From the NCBI GenBank assembly GCA_947625955.1, contig CANQQH010000002.1, positions 1-33,645 of the forward strand: 33,645 nt of DNA, written 5' to 3'. Below are positions 6,720 to 29,718 of the stretch, one piece after another. Both the position numbers and the translations under genes were made by a program. Under the pieces are notes generated by a model. The model was not told where the DNA came from. It saw only the letters and a program-made list of their open reading frames with translations, and did not search any database. Each line of letters opens with the position of its first letter. Positions within the stretch are counted from its first letter, which is position 1. Origin of the DNA: an uncultured Clostridia bacterium. Lineage in GTDB: Bacteria; Bacillota; Clostridia; Christensenellales; UBA1242.

Positions 6720-6752
6720 AAAAAAATAACGCTACGCAGCGTTATTTTTTCT
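6720..6752. terminator. Bidirectional terminator between convergent genes
   Basis: AAAAAATAACGCT-acgc-AGCGTTATTTTTT; the minus-strand gene's stop codon lies in its loop. Confidence 0.8.
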
Positions 6753-8732
6753 CTCCTTTTTTGGAAAAACCACAAATCTTTTATCATCAAAAATTATGTT
6801 CTCAACTTTGTGCTTTCTCTCGTCTTGTGCAACTTCAACATCAAATTGTTGCTTTTCCTCATCCGCACAAGCGTTTGAAACCAGAAGTTTTGGCCACTTC
6901 TCAAACTCCTGTTCTTGTTTTTGCTTCGCGGCATTTGGAATAAATGAGCTTTGCGCATAAGTGACCTTCGCCTTGAGAAGCGCGTCATTGCCAGATGTAT
7001 TACTAATCTTGGCTTTCAAACTATTCCATTGTTCTCTCGTCCCATGAAAAATAACATCTGTCAAACTATCACAATTTGAAAATGCCGAATCTCCAACACC
7101 TATTAATTCTCCTGGAAGTTCAATCTTCTGCAACTCGTAGCAATAATCAAAAACATTATAATCAATCACCGTCACTCCGCTTGGGATGCTTATTTCCTTC
7201 AATACTTCACAATGAGTAAATGCCGCCATAGGAATCGTTGTAATATATTGAGGAAGCCGAATATAAGTAAGATAATAATTATGACCAAAAGCATACCTAC
7301 CAATTTGTGTCATTGTATCCGGCAAAATCAAACTTTTGAAACTTTTACTATAAAAAGCATTTTCTACGCACGCAATAACAGGCGCACCCGCATAATAGTT
7401 TGGCACAACAATTTCGAGATTTTCATTAGCAACATTATTAGGCACCTGCACAGTATAACCGCCGTCTATTGAAATGTATCTTAAATATGTTGATGAAGCT
7501 GGTTTTTCTTCATATATGATAACAACATCATTATTAACGACATATCTATCTGTTGTTCCCTGTCTTGTTACCCCTTCAACTTCAAGATTCATCCAATATT
7601 CGTTTTTTATAGTATAATATATTTCAAGAACTTCATCTTTTTTAACCTTTTCACCACTATACAATTGTGTTCCATTTCTTTTCACAACAACTTGCTGAGG
7701 TACGGTTCCAAGAAAGAAATCAACATTTTTGTTCAAAATTTCATCTTCATTTATTTCTTCACTTGAACAAGAAAATATTGCGTCTTTTTCAACATATATT
7801 GCTGATCCATATTCAGCTTCACAACGATAAATTTCACCACCTGTTATATTGCAAGATGACCCCGTTGAAACATATATTCCGCCACCATATGTTGCTTGAC
7901 AGGAGTATATTTCGCCTTCAGTCATGGTGAGAGAAGCCCCACCAGATGCAAGAAATATTCCGCCACCATTTGTTGCATTACCACTATAAATTTGCCCATA
8001 ACTATTGTTAATTTCTACTGAACCACCAGCTTCAACATAAATGCAACCACCATTTTGCGCATATCCTCCAAAAATAGCTGGGTGTTTTGATAGGCTTTTA
8101 TAATCAACAACCAATGTTGCACCAGACGACAAGTATATAGTACCACCATTTGAGTTACAATTCCCATCAATAATGCCACCATACATTTCAACTTTGGCAT
8201 TTTTTTCGCAAAAAACCGCTCCACCACAATACTCAGAAGAACCATCTATTGATCCGTCATTCATAATCAAGGTCGCATTTTCTTCAAGATAAACTGCTCC
8301 GCCCCATAGCGAGCTCCCGCGTATATCTCCGCCATTCATTATAAATGTTCCACCCGATTCAACATAGACCGCGCCACCAAAATACGCTTCCGTGCTTCCA
8401 AGGTTCCCGCCTTCCATAATGAATGTGCCCTCGCTCGAAACATAAACAACACCACCAAAGGTTGCGATCCTGCTATCTTCTTCCTCTTGATAAATATTCT
8501 CAAATTCGCCATCCGTCAATGTCATTGTTGCGCCTTTTCCAACAAAAATGCGCGCACCCCGCAAATATGATTCACTCGCTATGCTCGAAGGCTTTGATGG
8601 CGGCTCTTCAAATTCATATTCACCTTCCCAATATAGTGCCGAAGCACTACTTTGGTTTTGAATGAGTTGAAACGAAAAATATATCGCCAGAGTGGTTACA
8701 ATAAAAAGTAAAATTGCCGATATCTTTTTCAT
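6732..8732 (-). CDS. Secreted/surface protein: signal peptide, beta-helix-like ~24-aa repeats (GGAVYVESGGTFIMNGGDI), then BspA-type LRRs
   Basis: MKKISAILLFIVTTLAIYFSF signal sequence, about 9 GG(A/T/G)(V/I)Y repeats, LRR_5 units (YAFGHNYYLTYIRLPQYITTIPMAAFTHCEVLKEISIPSGV). RBS AGGAAGCAA-ATG. Confidence 0.85.
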   Translation of the reverse strand: MKKISAILLFIVTTLAIYFSFQLIQNQSSASALYWEGEYEFEEPPSKPSSIASESYLRGARIFVGKGATMTLTDGEFENIYQEEEDSRIATFGGVVYVSSEGTFIMEGGNLGSTEAYFGGAVYVESGGTFIMNGGDIRGSSLWGGAVYLEENATLIMNDGSIDGSSEYCGGAVFCEKNAKVEMYGGIIDGNCNSNGGTIYLSSGATLVVDYKSLSKHPAIFGGYAQNGGCIYVEAGGSVEINNSYGQIYSGNATNGGGIFLASGGASLTMTEGEIYSCQATYGGGIYVSTGSSCNITGGEIYRCEAEYGSAIYVEKDAIFSCSSEEINEDEILNKNVDFFLGTVPQQVVVKRNGTQLYSGEKVKKDEVLEIYYTIKNEYWMNLEVEGVTRQGTTDRYVVNNDVVIIYEEKPASSTYLRYISIDGGYTVQVPNNVANENLEIVVPNYYAGAPVIACVENAFYSKSFKSLILPDTMTQIGRYAFGHNYYLTYIRLPQYITTIPMAAFTHCEVLKEISIPSGVTVIDYNVFDYCYELQKIELPGELIGVGDSAFSNCDSLTDVIFHGTREQWNSLKAKISNTSGNDALLKAKVTYAQSSFIPNAAKQKQEQEFEKWPKLLVSNACADEEKQQFDVEVAQDERKHKVENIIFDDKRFVVFPKKERKNNAA

Positions 8733-8811
8733 TTGCTTCCTCTATTCAAAATTATTCACAGGAAAAACAGCGCGCAAAGCGACCCTGCCCACTCTTTTTC
8801 TATACATAAAA

Positions 8812-8842
8812 AATATACCCCCCCCCCCCATATTTTTGTCAA
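8812..8842 (-). promoter_or_regulatory. Putative phase-variable promoter with a G12 tract between -35 and -10
   Basis: Minus strand TTGACA(8842-8837)-aaaatat-GGGGGGGGGGGG(8829-8818)-TATATT(8817-8812); spacer 19 bp. Confidence 0.7.
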
Positions 8843-8885: not shown

Positions 8886-8922
8886 AAAAAATCCACTTCG
8901 AAGATGTTGAAGTGGATTTTTT
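8886..8922 (-). terminator. Rho-independent terminator downstream of the DUF1858 gene
   Basis: AAAAAATCCACTTC...GAAGTGGATTTTTT hairpin. Confidence 0.8.
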
Positions 8923-23773: not shown

Positions 23774-23903
23774 ACCTTTCTCGCAAGAAATCACAATATA
23801 AGCGCCACCTCAAACTTCAAGTATTGCTTTTTATACAAATAATTGATTTGATTTGAAATTTGTTATATTAAAGATTTAATTTAAGAAATTAATTATTCAT
23901 ATT

Positions 23904-25074
23904 GGTTAAGTTCCTTTTTGATTCTTGATATGGTATAATTTCATTTGAAAAGACAATTGGATTAATCCAGTTTTAGTTCCCTATTGGATTTTGGTATGGT
24001 ATAATTTATTCCGACGAGGATTGGTTGCATGATAAGTTTTAGTTCCCTATTGGATTTTGGTATGGTATAATTCTGTTAAGAAACATGAAGCCCTTATCAA
24101 GTGTTTTAGTTCCCTATTGGATTTTGGTATGGTATAATATTGAAAGTTAAGCCTGCGTCACCGCAATTGTTTTAGTTCCCTATTGGATTTTGGTATGGTA
24201 TAATCCGCGCGGGCGGCATTCTTGACGATAGCATGTTTTAGTTCCCTATTGGATTTTGGTATGGTATAATTCTTGTATTTGACAAAATGTCATACAGATA
24301 GTTTTAGTTCCCTATTGGATTTTGGTATGGTATAATTTTTGCGCAGCTCTTTCATATCGTTTGACAGTTTTAGTTCCCTATTGGATTTTGGTATGGTATA
24401 ATAGTTTTTCTCGCCACTGTGTCATCTAGTGAGTTTTAGTTCCCTATTGGATTTTGGTATGGTATAATGGAAACTAAAATAGAGTGAACAGGATTATAAC
24501 CCAACCATAGGTTTTAGTTCCCTATTGGATTTTGGTATGGTATAATTAAAAGGCTCAGTTTTTGCATGGATTAAAAGTTTTAGTTCCCTATTGGATTTTG
24601 GTATGGTATAATAAAAGCAACAAGCCCCAATAAATTAGGACAGTTTTAGTTCCCTATTGGATTTTGGTATGGTATAATAACCATCAAGTGAAAAAGCATA
24701 ACCGTCTTGTTTTAGTTCCCTATTGGATTTTGGTATGGTATAATTTTAACTCCATGATGGATTTTTTCAGCTCAGTTTTAGTTCCCTATTGGATTTTGGT
24801 ATGGTATAATTAGCGTTTTCACTGGCAAATTGATACCTAAGTTTTAGTTCCCTATTGGATTTTGGTATGGTATAATAGGGCGGTCGCACGGAGGTTAAAA
24901 ATTATGGTTTTAGTTCCCTATTGGATTTTGGTATGGTATAATTGGAGCAATTTCCTCACCACAAGAAAGATAGTTTTAGTTCCCTATTGGATTTTGGTAT
25001 GGTATAATCAATAATCGATATTATATATACGGCAAAAAGTTTTAGTTCCCTATTGGATTTTGGTATGGTATAAT
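23904..25074 (+). CRISPR. Type II-C CRISPR array: 18 repeats of 36 bp (the one at 23904 is degenerate) and 17 spacers (15 of 30 nt, one of 31, one of 42)
   Basis: Repeat GTTTTAGTTCCCTATTGGATTTTGGTATGGTATAAT at 23970, 24036, 24103, 24169, 24235, 24301, 24367, 24433, 24511, 24577, 24643, 24709, 24775, 24841, 24907, 24973 and 25039. Orientation deduced from tracrRNA complementarity. Confidence 0.99.
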
Positions 25075-25088
25075 AGGCAACTAAAAAC

Positions 25089-25131
25089 AAAGAGTTCAAC
25101 ATTCGATATTTTCGTTCGTTGAACTCTTTTT
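25089..25131. terminator. Terminator between array and cas2, stronger on + strand
   Basis: AAAGAGTTCAAC-attcgatattttcgttc-GTTGAACTCTTTTT, 12-bp perfect stem. Confidence 0.85.
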
Positions 25132-25476: not shown

Positions 25477-26359
25477 ACTTGTGCACATTGAGCCCAACAA
25501 TTTTGATTTGTTTTATTTCTCTCTTATTTGTTTTCAAACATTCCAAAAAACTCTCAACATAAATATCGATCGCGTTTGAGAGCGTTTGCATTTTACCATC
25601 AACTTCAACGTCTATATTAATTATATTATAAATCCGTGTTTTTATCTCGGTTGTGACAGCAGTTTCTTTATCAAGATAAATTTTCACAAACAAGTCCACA
25701 ATTGGCCTAAATGGTTCCATCAGATCATCTGCCAAATTAAATTGGTTGAACTGATTTGAATGTTTTATTCCCCAAAACGGCATGAGGCCATGCACAACTA
25801 TACTTCGCGCAACAAATCCGCGTATGATTGCATAACCATAGTTCAAAAATGCATTGATAATGTTATCGTTCCTACGCTTGAAGTCTTTGTTAAACAATTC
25901 TTTGAAATAAATTTGACTTGCTGTTGCTTCAACGTTGCTGCTATCATCACTCAGCACACTATCAGCCAAATTTTTGAGTTTGTCATTCCCGCCACAGATA
26001 TTCAAGACTTCGTTTTGATTCCTAATTTTATTTTTTACAACATTTTGCCATAGTTGTTTTATCAATGGTTTGCTTGCACCAATTTGATGGTTGTAGTTCA
26101 AAATATTATAATGTTGGCAATATGGCAGCAACACGCCACAGGGCAAGTGTTTTTCGTCGCAAACAAAGACCAAAACACCGTTCTGCGCAAACTGAGAAAG
26201 AGTGTAATTTGAAATGCTTCCACTCATATTTTCTATCATAACGCTATTAATGTCTTCAAGTGGATAATCGTTTTGCTGTTCTGAGTTTTTCAAAAACACC
26301 TGGTTGTTCTTTATGTTTATATGCGCTTCATTGCCCACAAAAATATTAATATAACCCAT
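25469..26359 (-). CDS. cas1: CRISPR-associated endonuclease Cas1 (type II)
   Basis: MGYINIFVGNEAHINIKNNQVFLKN...LEDINSVMIEN...QNGVLVFVCDEKHLPCGVLLP...NAFLNYGYAIIRGFVARSIVVHGLMPFWGIKHSNQFNQFNLADDLMEPFRPIVD. Confidence 0.97.
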   Translation of the reverse strand: MGYINIFVGNEAHINIKNNQVFLKNSEQQNDYPLEDINSVMIENMSGSISNYTLSQFAQNGVLVFVCDEKHLPCGVLLPYCQHYNILNYNHQIGASKPLIKQLWQNVVKNKIRNQNEVLNICGGNDKLKNLADSVLSDDSSNVEATASQIYFKELFNKDFKRRNDNIINAFLNYGYAIIRGFVARSIVVHGLMPFWGIKHSNQFNQFNLADDLMEPFRPIVDLFVKIYLDKETAVTTEIKTRIYNIINIDVEVDGKMQTLSNAIDIYVESFLECLKTNKREIKQIKIVGLNVHKYE

Positions 26360-29300
26360 TAAAGTTCTTTCCTTGTTTCCTTAGGCGCTTTGTATATGTT
26401 GCCCATAATATCAACATAATATTTTTCAATATTTGGCAGCGTTTTAACACCTAAATTATCTCTTTTGTAACACCTATCATGAGTAAGGACCTCAATGCTA
26501 GCATTTGCAATATTTGTTCCATTATAATATCCAAGCAACTCTTTCACCTTTATTTTATCTGGCTTCTTCGATAATGGATTATTAAATGTCTTAACACACT
26601 CCTTTTCTTCATTGAAGGTTAACTTTATTAGGTCGTTTTGATAAAGACTGAAACAAAATTCAAAACCATCATCAATTTCAGTCCATTCTTTTCCTATTTC
26701 CACAACTTTATTAGGCAATTTCTTTGCATAATAATCACTCACATAGACTGGACACAAGAAATATTTATTGGCCTTTTTGAAAACATCAACCCTTACCATA
26801 CCTCCGTTTGCCGCCGCCCCATTTGGAGTTTTCACATAGCTTGACGCTTTAACATAAGCTTTAACCTTTCTAACAACAGGCCCATCCGTTCCGTCCTTTC
26901 TAGGTTTTCTAAATTCTATGTTTGGCGTTATTTTCCCATTTTCAATCAAGTAATTTTTGAGCTTCAAATATAACAATCTATCACTTTCTGGTTTATAGTA
27001 ATCCTCAATAGATTGATTTGGATACTTATCCCCTTTCAAAGGAACAATTTCAGGTTTGTTTTTCACACTAAGATTTTCAATAGAAACACTCTTTATCAAT
27101 CTTTTTGTGTTTCCATACTCACGATCACTCATCATTGTTTCTTGGTGAATTGCGCCCGTCAGTTTTGTTGTTTTCATTCTGCTGATAAACACTGGCTCCG
27201 CACCCGCAGTCTCTTCTTCGCTATAACCAAGATTTATCAGTTCTTGTTTGTCGCTTTGCGAAAATTCATTGCGATAGTAGTCAACTTTTCCGCGAATTTC
27301 CAGTTCCTTCACGAAGTTCAAGTATGGCGGAGTTAACCTATCGCTCATCAAATCAATGCCAAGCTGTTCCAATTCATCTTTTTCTTGTTTATTCAAAACT
27401 TCACCAGTTTTCTTGCTGATGAAAACATTATGCTTATCATCAAAAACAAATTTTTCTTTCAGCATATTAAACTTTGTAATTTTTTGAATTTCGCTATTTG
27501 ATACTGTTGAAATGATGGCTGCGTCAATACAATGGTGAATATCACCATCATCACGAATTTTGTTGATACCCCAAAACTTCCTAAGATAACTTGTAACCGC
27601 CCCATTAACACTTCTTATAACATTCTTTTTTTCGCGTTGGCTTGGCTCAACTTTGAGGTATTTTTGCATGAGGTTGAGCATGAAACGAGAAATATATCTT
27701 GTATCGTTAAGATTGCGTTCAATAAAATATTTTTGTTGTTCTTCGCCATACTTTTCCTTTAACAACCTGGTTTCTTTTTCTCTATTTTTCAAAAGAACAA
27801 CACGCCCAACAAACTCAGCCCACTTGTTTTTATCATCGCCCATGTATTCAAACGGAGTTCTGTTGCCCTTGTTCTGGTTTTCCTGAGCCAGAACCAAAAC
27901 CTTATTATTAAAGCTATCATCCATACTTCTGCTGAAAGGCAAAATATGGTCAATTTGCACATAGTTTGGCTCGAAAAGTCTGCTAAACTCTATTGGTTTT
28001 CCACTATATATACATTTACCATTCTGCTCATTATACAATTTATATTTCAGCAAATCCAAGTAGGTCGGTTTAACAAGTCCAAATTCCTTTAAGTTCTCGC
28101 GCGCTTGATCGTTTTTTAGCAAGTTTTCATCTTGCCTTTTCTGCATTTTCTTTCTTTCAGAAAAGTCTCTACTCATATCTCTTGCAAGTTCGATGTTAAC
28201 TTGTTGAGGAGAACCATATTCCTTTATTATTGCATTGATGATTCTTAATGTTTGGTGAACCGCCCTTTTAACAACTGGAGAGGTTATATCTTCAAGTGTT
28301 TCATCAATTTCCTTGCCTTTGAGATATTTCATCTTTTCTGTTTCAAAGCTTGAATGATTATAGCCAGCACTTCTTGCTGCGATATCATATCTCTCGCCCT
28401 TTTCAAGATAAGGAATCATCTTCGTCATTGCAATAATACTCAAAGAACCAAACTGCTCAAAACTCAGTTCTTTAATGCTATTTTGCTGCTCAACAGAAAG
28501 CCCCTTTAACAAATCGCTGTTTTCAATATACTTTTGAATATTTTGCTCACTTTTATTATACGAAAGTATTGTTGCAACCTCGTCGATAAGTTGAATATTG
28601 TCATATGAGCTTTCCAGTTCCAACGCCTTCCTGATCGAATAACTCTTTGTCATACTAAAAAATGTTGCTTTTTCGCTTGACGCAACCAGTTCTTCATCAG
28701 TCAGTTCAACATCTCGCTTGCCTTGATATCTGCAAAGATTGAATCGCTCACTAGTTGGCAAAGACAACAACTTTCTTATTTGAGAAAATTTGAGCTGCTC
28801 TTTCTCCCTGATCTCTTTTATTAGAATATTTCGTTGTTCTTCTGTTAAAGGTTCATCATTGATTCTTAGATTGTTTATTTTCGAAAGCGCATTGAAATAT
28901 TCAAATGTATATGTTGCCTTTGGAGCTCTTGGTTCACCATTTTCGAACGTACACATTCCAACTTCGAATTTGGCAGAGTACGGACTTGGTTTCCCAGGGC
29001 CTTGATCAAATGTCCTCTGCGCAGAAAAAATACTAAGCACATTCTCAATGAATTGCTCGTCGATTTGAGGATAATACTCTTTTTGTTTTTCAAGAATTTG
29101 CCTTATTTCATCTTTTAGCAAACTTCTATAAAAGCAATTTTGGTAATCTCCTGAATGGTTTCTAATGTTATATATCTCGCGCCCGCATTGTTCAATCTTG
29201 AATCTATTGTCAAAATAAAGAGCTTCGCCGACAGTTTTGTAGCCTCCATCGGTCAAGAACTTCGTGTTGCTATTTAATGATTCAAGCAACTTTCCTTCTT

Positions 29301-29718
29301 CACTTCCACCATTCTTGCGATTACTTTCAAAGCCTCTTCTTTTGAGAATATTGAGAATTATTTTTATGATTTCTCCACAACTAACTTTTTCTTTTATAGC
29401 TTTTGAGCGCAACCAATAAACATCTTCATTGGAAACGCTGGCCAGTTGTTTTTCAACATCAACACCAAAAGTCCTTTGCAATAGTGCCTTCATTCTTTGC
29501 TTTCTCAACGCCTTTCTGCGCGTGCGACGACGCAATCCGCGCTTTTCGCGTCGATTTTTGGCAGTGCTCTCACCAGTCTTTTCCACTTCATTTGGACTAA
29601 ACGTCCTGACACCCAACTTTATTATTCTTGTTGGTTCTTCGGTTACAGGGTCATTTTCCAAAACAGCCCAACCAACACTTCCAACGCCAATATCTAAACC
29701 GATTCTATACTTATTCAT
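26359..29718 (-). CDS. cas9: CRISPR-associated endonuclease Cas9 (type II-C, 1119 aa)
   Basis: Ruv[15 protein letters not shown]; Arg-rich bridge helix [20 protein letters not shown]; RuvC-II [50 protein letters not shown]; RuvC-III [12 protein letters not shown]. All catalytic positions appear intact. Confidence 0.98.
   Translation of the reverse strand: [1119 protein letters not shown]

Follow-up and report, generated by a model that had tools for sequence, protein, structure and literature searches.

Introduction

The paralogous vlp genes of Mycoplasma hyorhinis, an organism with a small genome, encode surface lipoproteins, lie in a cluster, and each carry their own homopolymeric promoter switch, a poly-A tract. 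In Neisseria meningitidis, a homopolymer in the spacer between the -35 and -10 elements (poly-G in porA and poly-C in opc) sets the promoter strength of a surface-protein gene, according to the titles of two papers, van der Ende 1995 and Sarkari 1994, that PMC5084427 cites. Promoter poly-G tracts also occur at several putative surface-protein genes of Treponema pallidum (tpr, TP0126, and tprL), where tract length affects reporter activity (PMC7864442), and in the gut commensal Bifidobacterium breve, slippage in a G-tract controls a surface structure, the sortase-pilus (PMC9187656).

Here, we describe a poly-G promoter in a stretch of 33,645 nucleotides from an uncultured Clostridia bacterium (Christensenellales). 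This stretch, hereafter the window, makes up the entire contig C2; the assembly to which it belongs comprises 1.04 Mb in 127 contigs and is 71% complete.

Results

A G12 Tract in the Spacer of the Window Promoter

On the minus strand, positions 8842-8812 of the window read TTGACA-AAAATAT-GGGGGGGGGGGG-TATATT. The sequence and a pattern search placed the -35 element TTGACA at 8837..8842 and the -10 element TATATT at 8812..8817; the 19-bp spacer between them is made up of a fixed 5' part, AAAATAT (8830..8836), which is common to several paralogous promoters, and a G12 tract (8818..8829), the proposed length switch. These minus-strand coordinates confirmed the elements and the spacer length read in the initial annotation, and the tract lies 85 nt from the ATG at 8732, in agreement with its estimate of a promoter about 80 bp upstream of the start codon. 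The 12-nt run had also been described as striking in an AT-rich sequence. The run does stand out, as no other G/C run in the window reaches six (the runners-up are C5 and G4), but the window, with a GC content of 40%, is only moderately AT-rich. About 2e-4 runs of 12 were expected under a dinucleotide model, and no dinucleotide shuffle reached the observed count of G8 matches.

The promoter is part of a self-contained unit of terminator, promoter, leader, a single gene, and that gene's own terminator, all on the minus strand. A terminator scan detected an intrinsic terminator (TCCACTTC..GAAGTGGATTTTTT, 8886..8922) that separates the promoter from the DUF1858 gene upstream; the hairpin is a palindrome that the scanner reports in both orientations, and it serves the minus-strand transcript. 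The 79-nt 5' leader (8733..8811) contains a GAGGAAG-type ribosome binding site and blocks shared with paralogs, among them GTTTTTC (8768-8762) and AATTTTG (8753-8747). As GTTTTTC(TT) and AATTTTG, these two blocks (8768-8747) are conserved among the putatively phase-variable paralogs. The leader was rejected as a structured RNA, since RNAalifold predicted no pairs when a conserved leader structure was looked for and an Rfam search of the window gave no match. The gene (6732..8732) is followed by an intrinsic terminator found in the same scan (6720..6751).

In G005 and G003, the two of six congeners in which the DUF1858 gene was located, other genes follow it and the cassette is absent, indicating an insertion or loss specific to a lineage; for the same reason, orthologous tract lengths are not comparable at this locus. 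The window also contains a CRISPR-like array with a 66-nt period and a repeat of about 36 nt, GTTTTAGTTCCCTATTGGATTTTGGTATGGTATAAT, close to a gene for a Cas9-like protein that has HNH_4 and RuvC domains (23901-25101 and 26359-29718).

The Downstream Gene Encodes a Predicted Surface Protein

The 666-aa exported protein encoded behind the promoter has an N-terminal hydrophobic (signal/TM) helix, a predicted beta-helix, a BspA-type LRR_5 domain, and a disordered tail, as expected from its earlier description as a signal-peptide-bearing beta-helix/LRR protein. The Pfam LRR_5 match (E = 2.8e-26, 92 bits against a cut-off of 27.7) gives it the repeats of the BspA-type LRR surface proteins; several paralogs have no LRR_5 match. 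In the AlphaFold2 model (pLDDT 77), the predicted beta-helix spans residues ~60-330 and the BspA-type LRR residues ~450-590. The best Foldseek matches were LRR cell-surface proteins, many of them from gut bacteria, and weaker matches were adhesin or tailspike beta-helices. The protein is predicted to lie at the cell surface, and no cell-wall anchor was recognised in it. Many otherwise divergent beta-helix paralogs share a short C-terminal tail of the type (F/V)D(N/T/D)KKFxLxP..K, found at 6732-6800 (minus strand) of the window and in L032, L033, L036, L038, L041, and L042 of the same genome, and this tail could mark the proteins for sorting or anchoring.

The Window Promoter Belongs to a Genome-Wide Set

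Pattern searches, from which all genome-wide statistics derive, revealed that the window promoter has counterparts across the genome, a point missed by the initial annotation. The genome has 17 places with G9 or longer, and at 13 of them, the window's 8842-8812 and 12 further places, the homopolymer lies between recognisable -35 and -10 elements (contigs C2, C7, C15, C22, C23, C36, C41, C42, C61, C82, C86, C101, and C111; the -35 element at C61 is TTGAAA). Since C86 and C111 probably stem from the same locus, these represent 12 distinct spacer tracts rather than 13. At C25, the -35 element is lost at the contig end and a -10 element is present after the tract. The remaining three places are of another, coding-type kind: the tract of C5 overlaps a possible ATG start, contig C97 begins at its tract, and C60 carries G11 (L040:2189-2199) within an acyltransferase-like ORF that is out of frame as assembled and would form one frame of ~400 aa with G9 or G12. 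Judged from its reading frames, C60 may be a second poly-G switch, one that acts on translation, in a gene of the surface-modification type and in the OFF state as assembled.

Shorter versions (G7-G8) of the tract occur at C7, C17, and C86. An HMM of the beta-helix N-terminus gave 47 matches on ~20 genes of this genome, of which at least 13 bear a tract of G7-G15 ahead of the -10 element, most of them with leader blocks such as GTTTTTCTT in common. The cassette often consists of a terminator, TTGACA, ~7 AT-rich nucleotides, the G tract, the -10 element, a related leader, and an exported beta-helix gene. Three paralogs represent the short end of the range, one with G4, one with G3 and a second -10 element at 16 bp, and one with a plain 17-bp spacer and no tract. 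Poly-G spacers were also found before a P-type cation ATPase gene (G8) and before the gene of an unrelated 403-aa protein (G12 and G11 in two overlapping contigs), with tracts at L043:66-77, L043:3027-3034, and L046:35-45, indicating that the switch is not confined to beta-helix genes. An exported or membrane N-terminus, called by a simple hydrophobicity rule applied equally to both sets, was present in 12 of the 14 genes behind tracts in this genome, compared with 11 of 55 in the baseline.

Signs of Variation in Tract Length

The end of C86 and the start of C111 are identical over the 34 nt that precede the tract and the 65 nt that follow it, and their sole difference is G12 versus G11. Further, 5 of the 17 tracts lie within 70 bp of a contig end, more than expected (P = 2e-5), as if alternative lengths had broken the assembly at the tracts. 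The C86/C111 difference could instead reflect stutter or a duplication, and because library or sequencing stutter can produce both this difference and the excess at contig ends, the two observations are suggestive and not proof. Promoters with identical flanks within one genome also differ by one to several Gs; these are paralogs and are not independent.

Spacer Length and Predicted Promoter Strength

Promoters of the genus, collected from three genomes as TTGACA...TATAAT with no tract required, had a sharp spacer peak at 17 bp (68 of 147), with 68% at 16-18 bp, suggesting that tract length should matter. The tract spacers of this genome, in contrast, were scattered over 14-22 bp (14, 14, 15, 18 in three, 19 in six, 20 in two, and 22 bp), and only 3 of 15 fell within 16-18 bp (P = 4e-4; the 15 include both C86 and C111, probably one locus). 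Most of these promoters are accordingly predicted to be weak or OFF as assembled. This includes the window's, for which the prediction of the initial annotation fits the 19-bp spacer, although with G12 it may keep some residual activity.

Across the family, tract length correlated negatively with the length of the remaining spacer (r = -0.30, P = 1e-4), as would be expected if total spacing were under selection. A 17-bp peak was looked for among the family-wide total spacers and was not found, the distribution being broad. Poly-G spacers of the family dip at 17 bp (11) between 16 bp (27) and 18 bp (27), for which mostly-off states, shared ancestry, or an altered DNA geometry of the G-tract may be responsible.

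The Architecture Recurs in the Family and Beyond

Of the family's 298 genomes, 80, from 23 of 42 genera, matched the pattern TTGACA-N4-9-G8+-N0-7-TATNNT for this architecture, whereas the reversed pattern, used as a control, gave one match; the position of the tract in the spacer is non-random. Poly-C (8 or more) occupied the same spacer position in 48 family genomes (control, 0), concentrated in one other genus, g60, and absent from the window's genus. A sequence-specific role of the tract was rejected because of this poly-C at the same position in relatives. Within the window's genus, 10 of 12 downstream genes had an exported or membrane N-terminus.

Named GTDB genomes contained at least 118 stretches with the pattern, many in MAGs of gut Clostridia and Bacilli and some in isolates; among the matches listed, an exported or membrane N-terminus was found in 67 of 103 downstream genes versus 92 of 466 in the baseline (P = 1e-18). 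The signature is present in a cultured relative, Pumilibacter muris, which gave 8 matches. An rpoB tree placed the window's genus beside Pumilibacter and Borkfalkia (98/100), which is the sole use made of this tree, as three named rows sit on a long branch, probably owing to a wrong reading frame.

Discussion

The best reading of the window promoter is the one proposed in the initial annotation, a phase-variable promoter of a surface protein, since the genome repeats the arrangement at no fewer than 12 distinct promoters, 80 of the 298 genomes in the family have it against a single reversed-control match, tract length varies among promoters with identical flanks, and promoters of the genus peak at 17 bp. 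We consider it highly likely that the system operates by multi-locus transcriptional phase variation through slipped-strand mispairing, with the G12 tract as the switch of a contingency locus. Slipped-strand mispairing at replication would add or remove single Gs, each event shifting the distance from TTGACA to the -10 element by 1 bp. G9-G11 (16-18 bp) would then give stronger expression of the beta-helix/LRR surface protein, and G12 or more or G8 or fewer would give weaker or silent expression. Given the 17-bp preference of the genus, each cell lineage would toggle between stronger and weaker or silent states as the number of Gs changes.

Three other explanations were weighed against slipped-strand switching. 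The tract might be an inert passenger copied along with a duplicating cassette, the promoters being real and the tract length either stable or irrelevant to expression. The promoters do belong to a paralogous family with leaders and flanks in common, and two congeners lack the cassette at the corresponding position; however, a passenger would hardly be expected before the unrelated P-type ATPase and 403-aa protein genes of this genome or before unrelated exported genes in many lineages, nor would it account for a range of G3 to G15 in promoters that are otherwise alike, or for poly-G or poly-C at the same position in different genera. We consider this explanation unlikely. It is still harder to credit that the run is a regulator binding site or a structural element, such as a G-quadruplex or an A-form-like spacer, that tunes the promoter without acting as a slippage switch. 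Runs of 11 or more G are able to form stacked structures, and in the window's genus the run is exclusively G on the non-template strand. Against this, poly-C at the same place in relatives argues against a strand- or sequence-specific reader, tract lengths differ among paralogs, and transcription is expected to start downstream of the tract, which would thus be absent from the RNA.

A sequencing or assembly artefact is the most improbable explanation and deserves very little weight. False poly-G is a known product of two-colour Illumina chemistry, and some contigs (C25 and C97) end in a tract, but on the outward strand these two finish in C, whereas dark cycles would leave G. Most tracts of this genome have unique sequence on both flanks, and the flanks are -35 and -10 elements in 80 family genomes as well as in named genomes, isolates among them, that come from many studies.

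Returning to slipped-strand switching, a cassette present at least 13 times with differing tract lengths would lead a population to hold a combinatorial mixture of surface coats, in which single cells probably switch parts of the coat on and off at random. On balance, we favor the view that this is a genome-wide combinatorial surface-coat system of small-genome gut Clostridia, in which the poly-G promoter/leader/beta-helix cassette has been multiplied to at least 13 independent switches. With poly-G or poly-C recurring in the spacers of more than a quarter of the family's sampled species, multi-locus phase variation would be a widespread trait of commensal-type bacteria rather than a hallmark of pathogens. 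This touches a question raised in PMC11868660, for which the genome and its family look like a testable counter-example. If true, surface variation in reduced-genome gut Clostridia is stochastic, presumably to their advantage, and is relevant to phage resistance, IgA recognition, and niche adaptation; TTGACA-Nx-G8+-TATNNT would offer a simple genomic signature for finding such systems. In the literature searched, which excludes most subscription journals and preprints, no report was found of poly-G promoters serving as a genome-wide surface-protein system at multiple loci of small-genome gut Clostridia, and no paper treating Christensenellales together with phase variation.

The arrangement is like that of Neisseria porA and opc, as far as the cited titles describe them, in that a homopolymer lies between the -35 and -10 elements of a surface-protein gene, with the effect on promoter strength being predicted here. 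Those genes encode outer-membrane proteins of a Gram-negative bacterium and are single loci, whereas at least 13 paralogous beta-helix genes are involved here in a Clostridia genome of ~1 Mb. The likeness to Treponema pallidum, a spirochaete pathogen unlike the window's gut Clostridia, lies in promoter poly-G before putative surface genes, irrespective of the spacer position and of any kinship of the genes. In Bifidobacterium breve, the tract is intragenic and acts by frameshift, and only C60, and possibly C5, resemble it. The vlp switches of Mycoplasma hyorhinis are poly-A and clustered, while those described here are poly-G and belong to dispersed beta-helix genes. The proposed mechanism is already known from Neisseria porA/opc and Treponema tpr; what would be notable here is its scale and the taxon in which it occurs.
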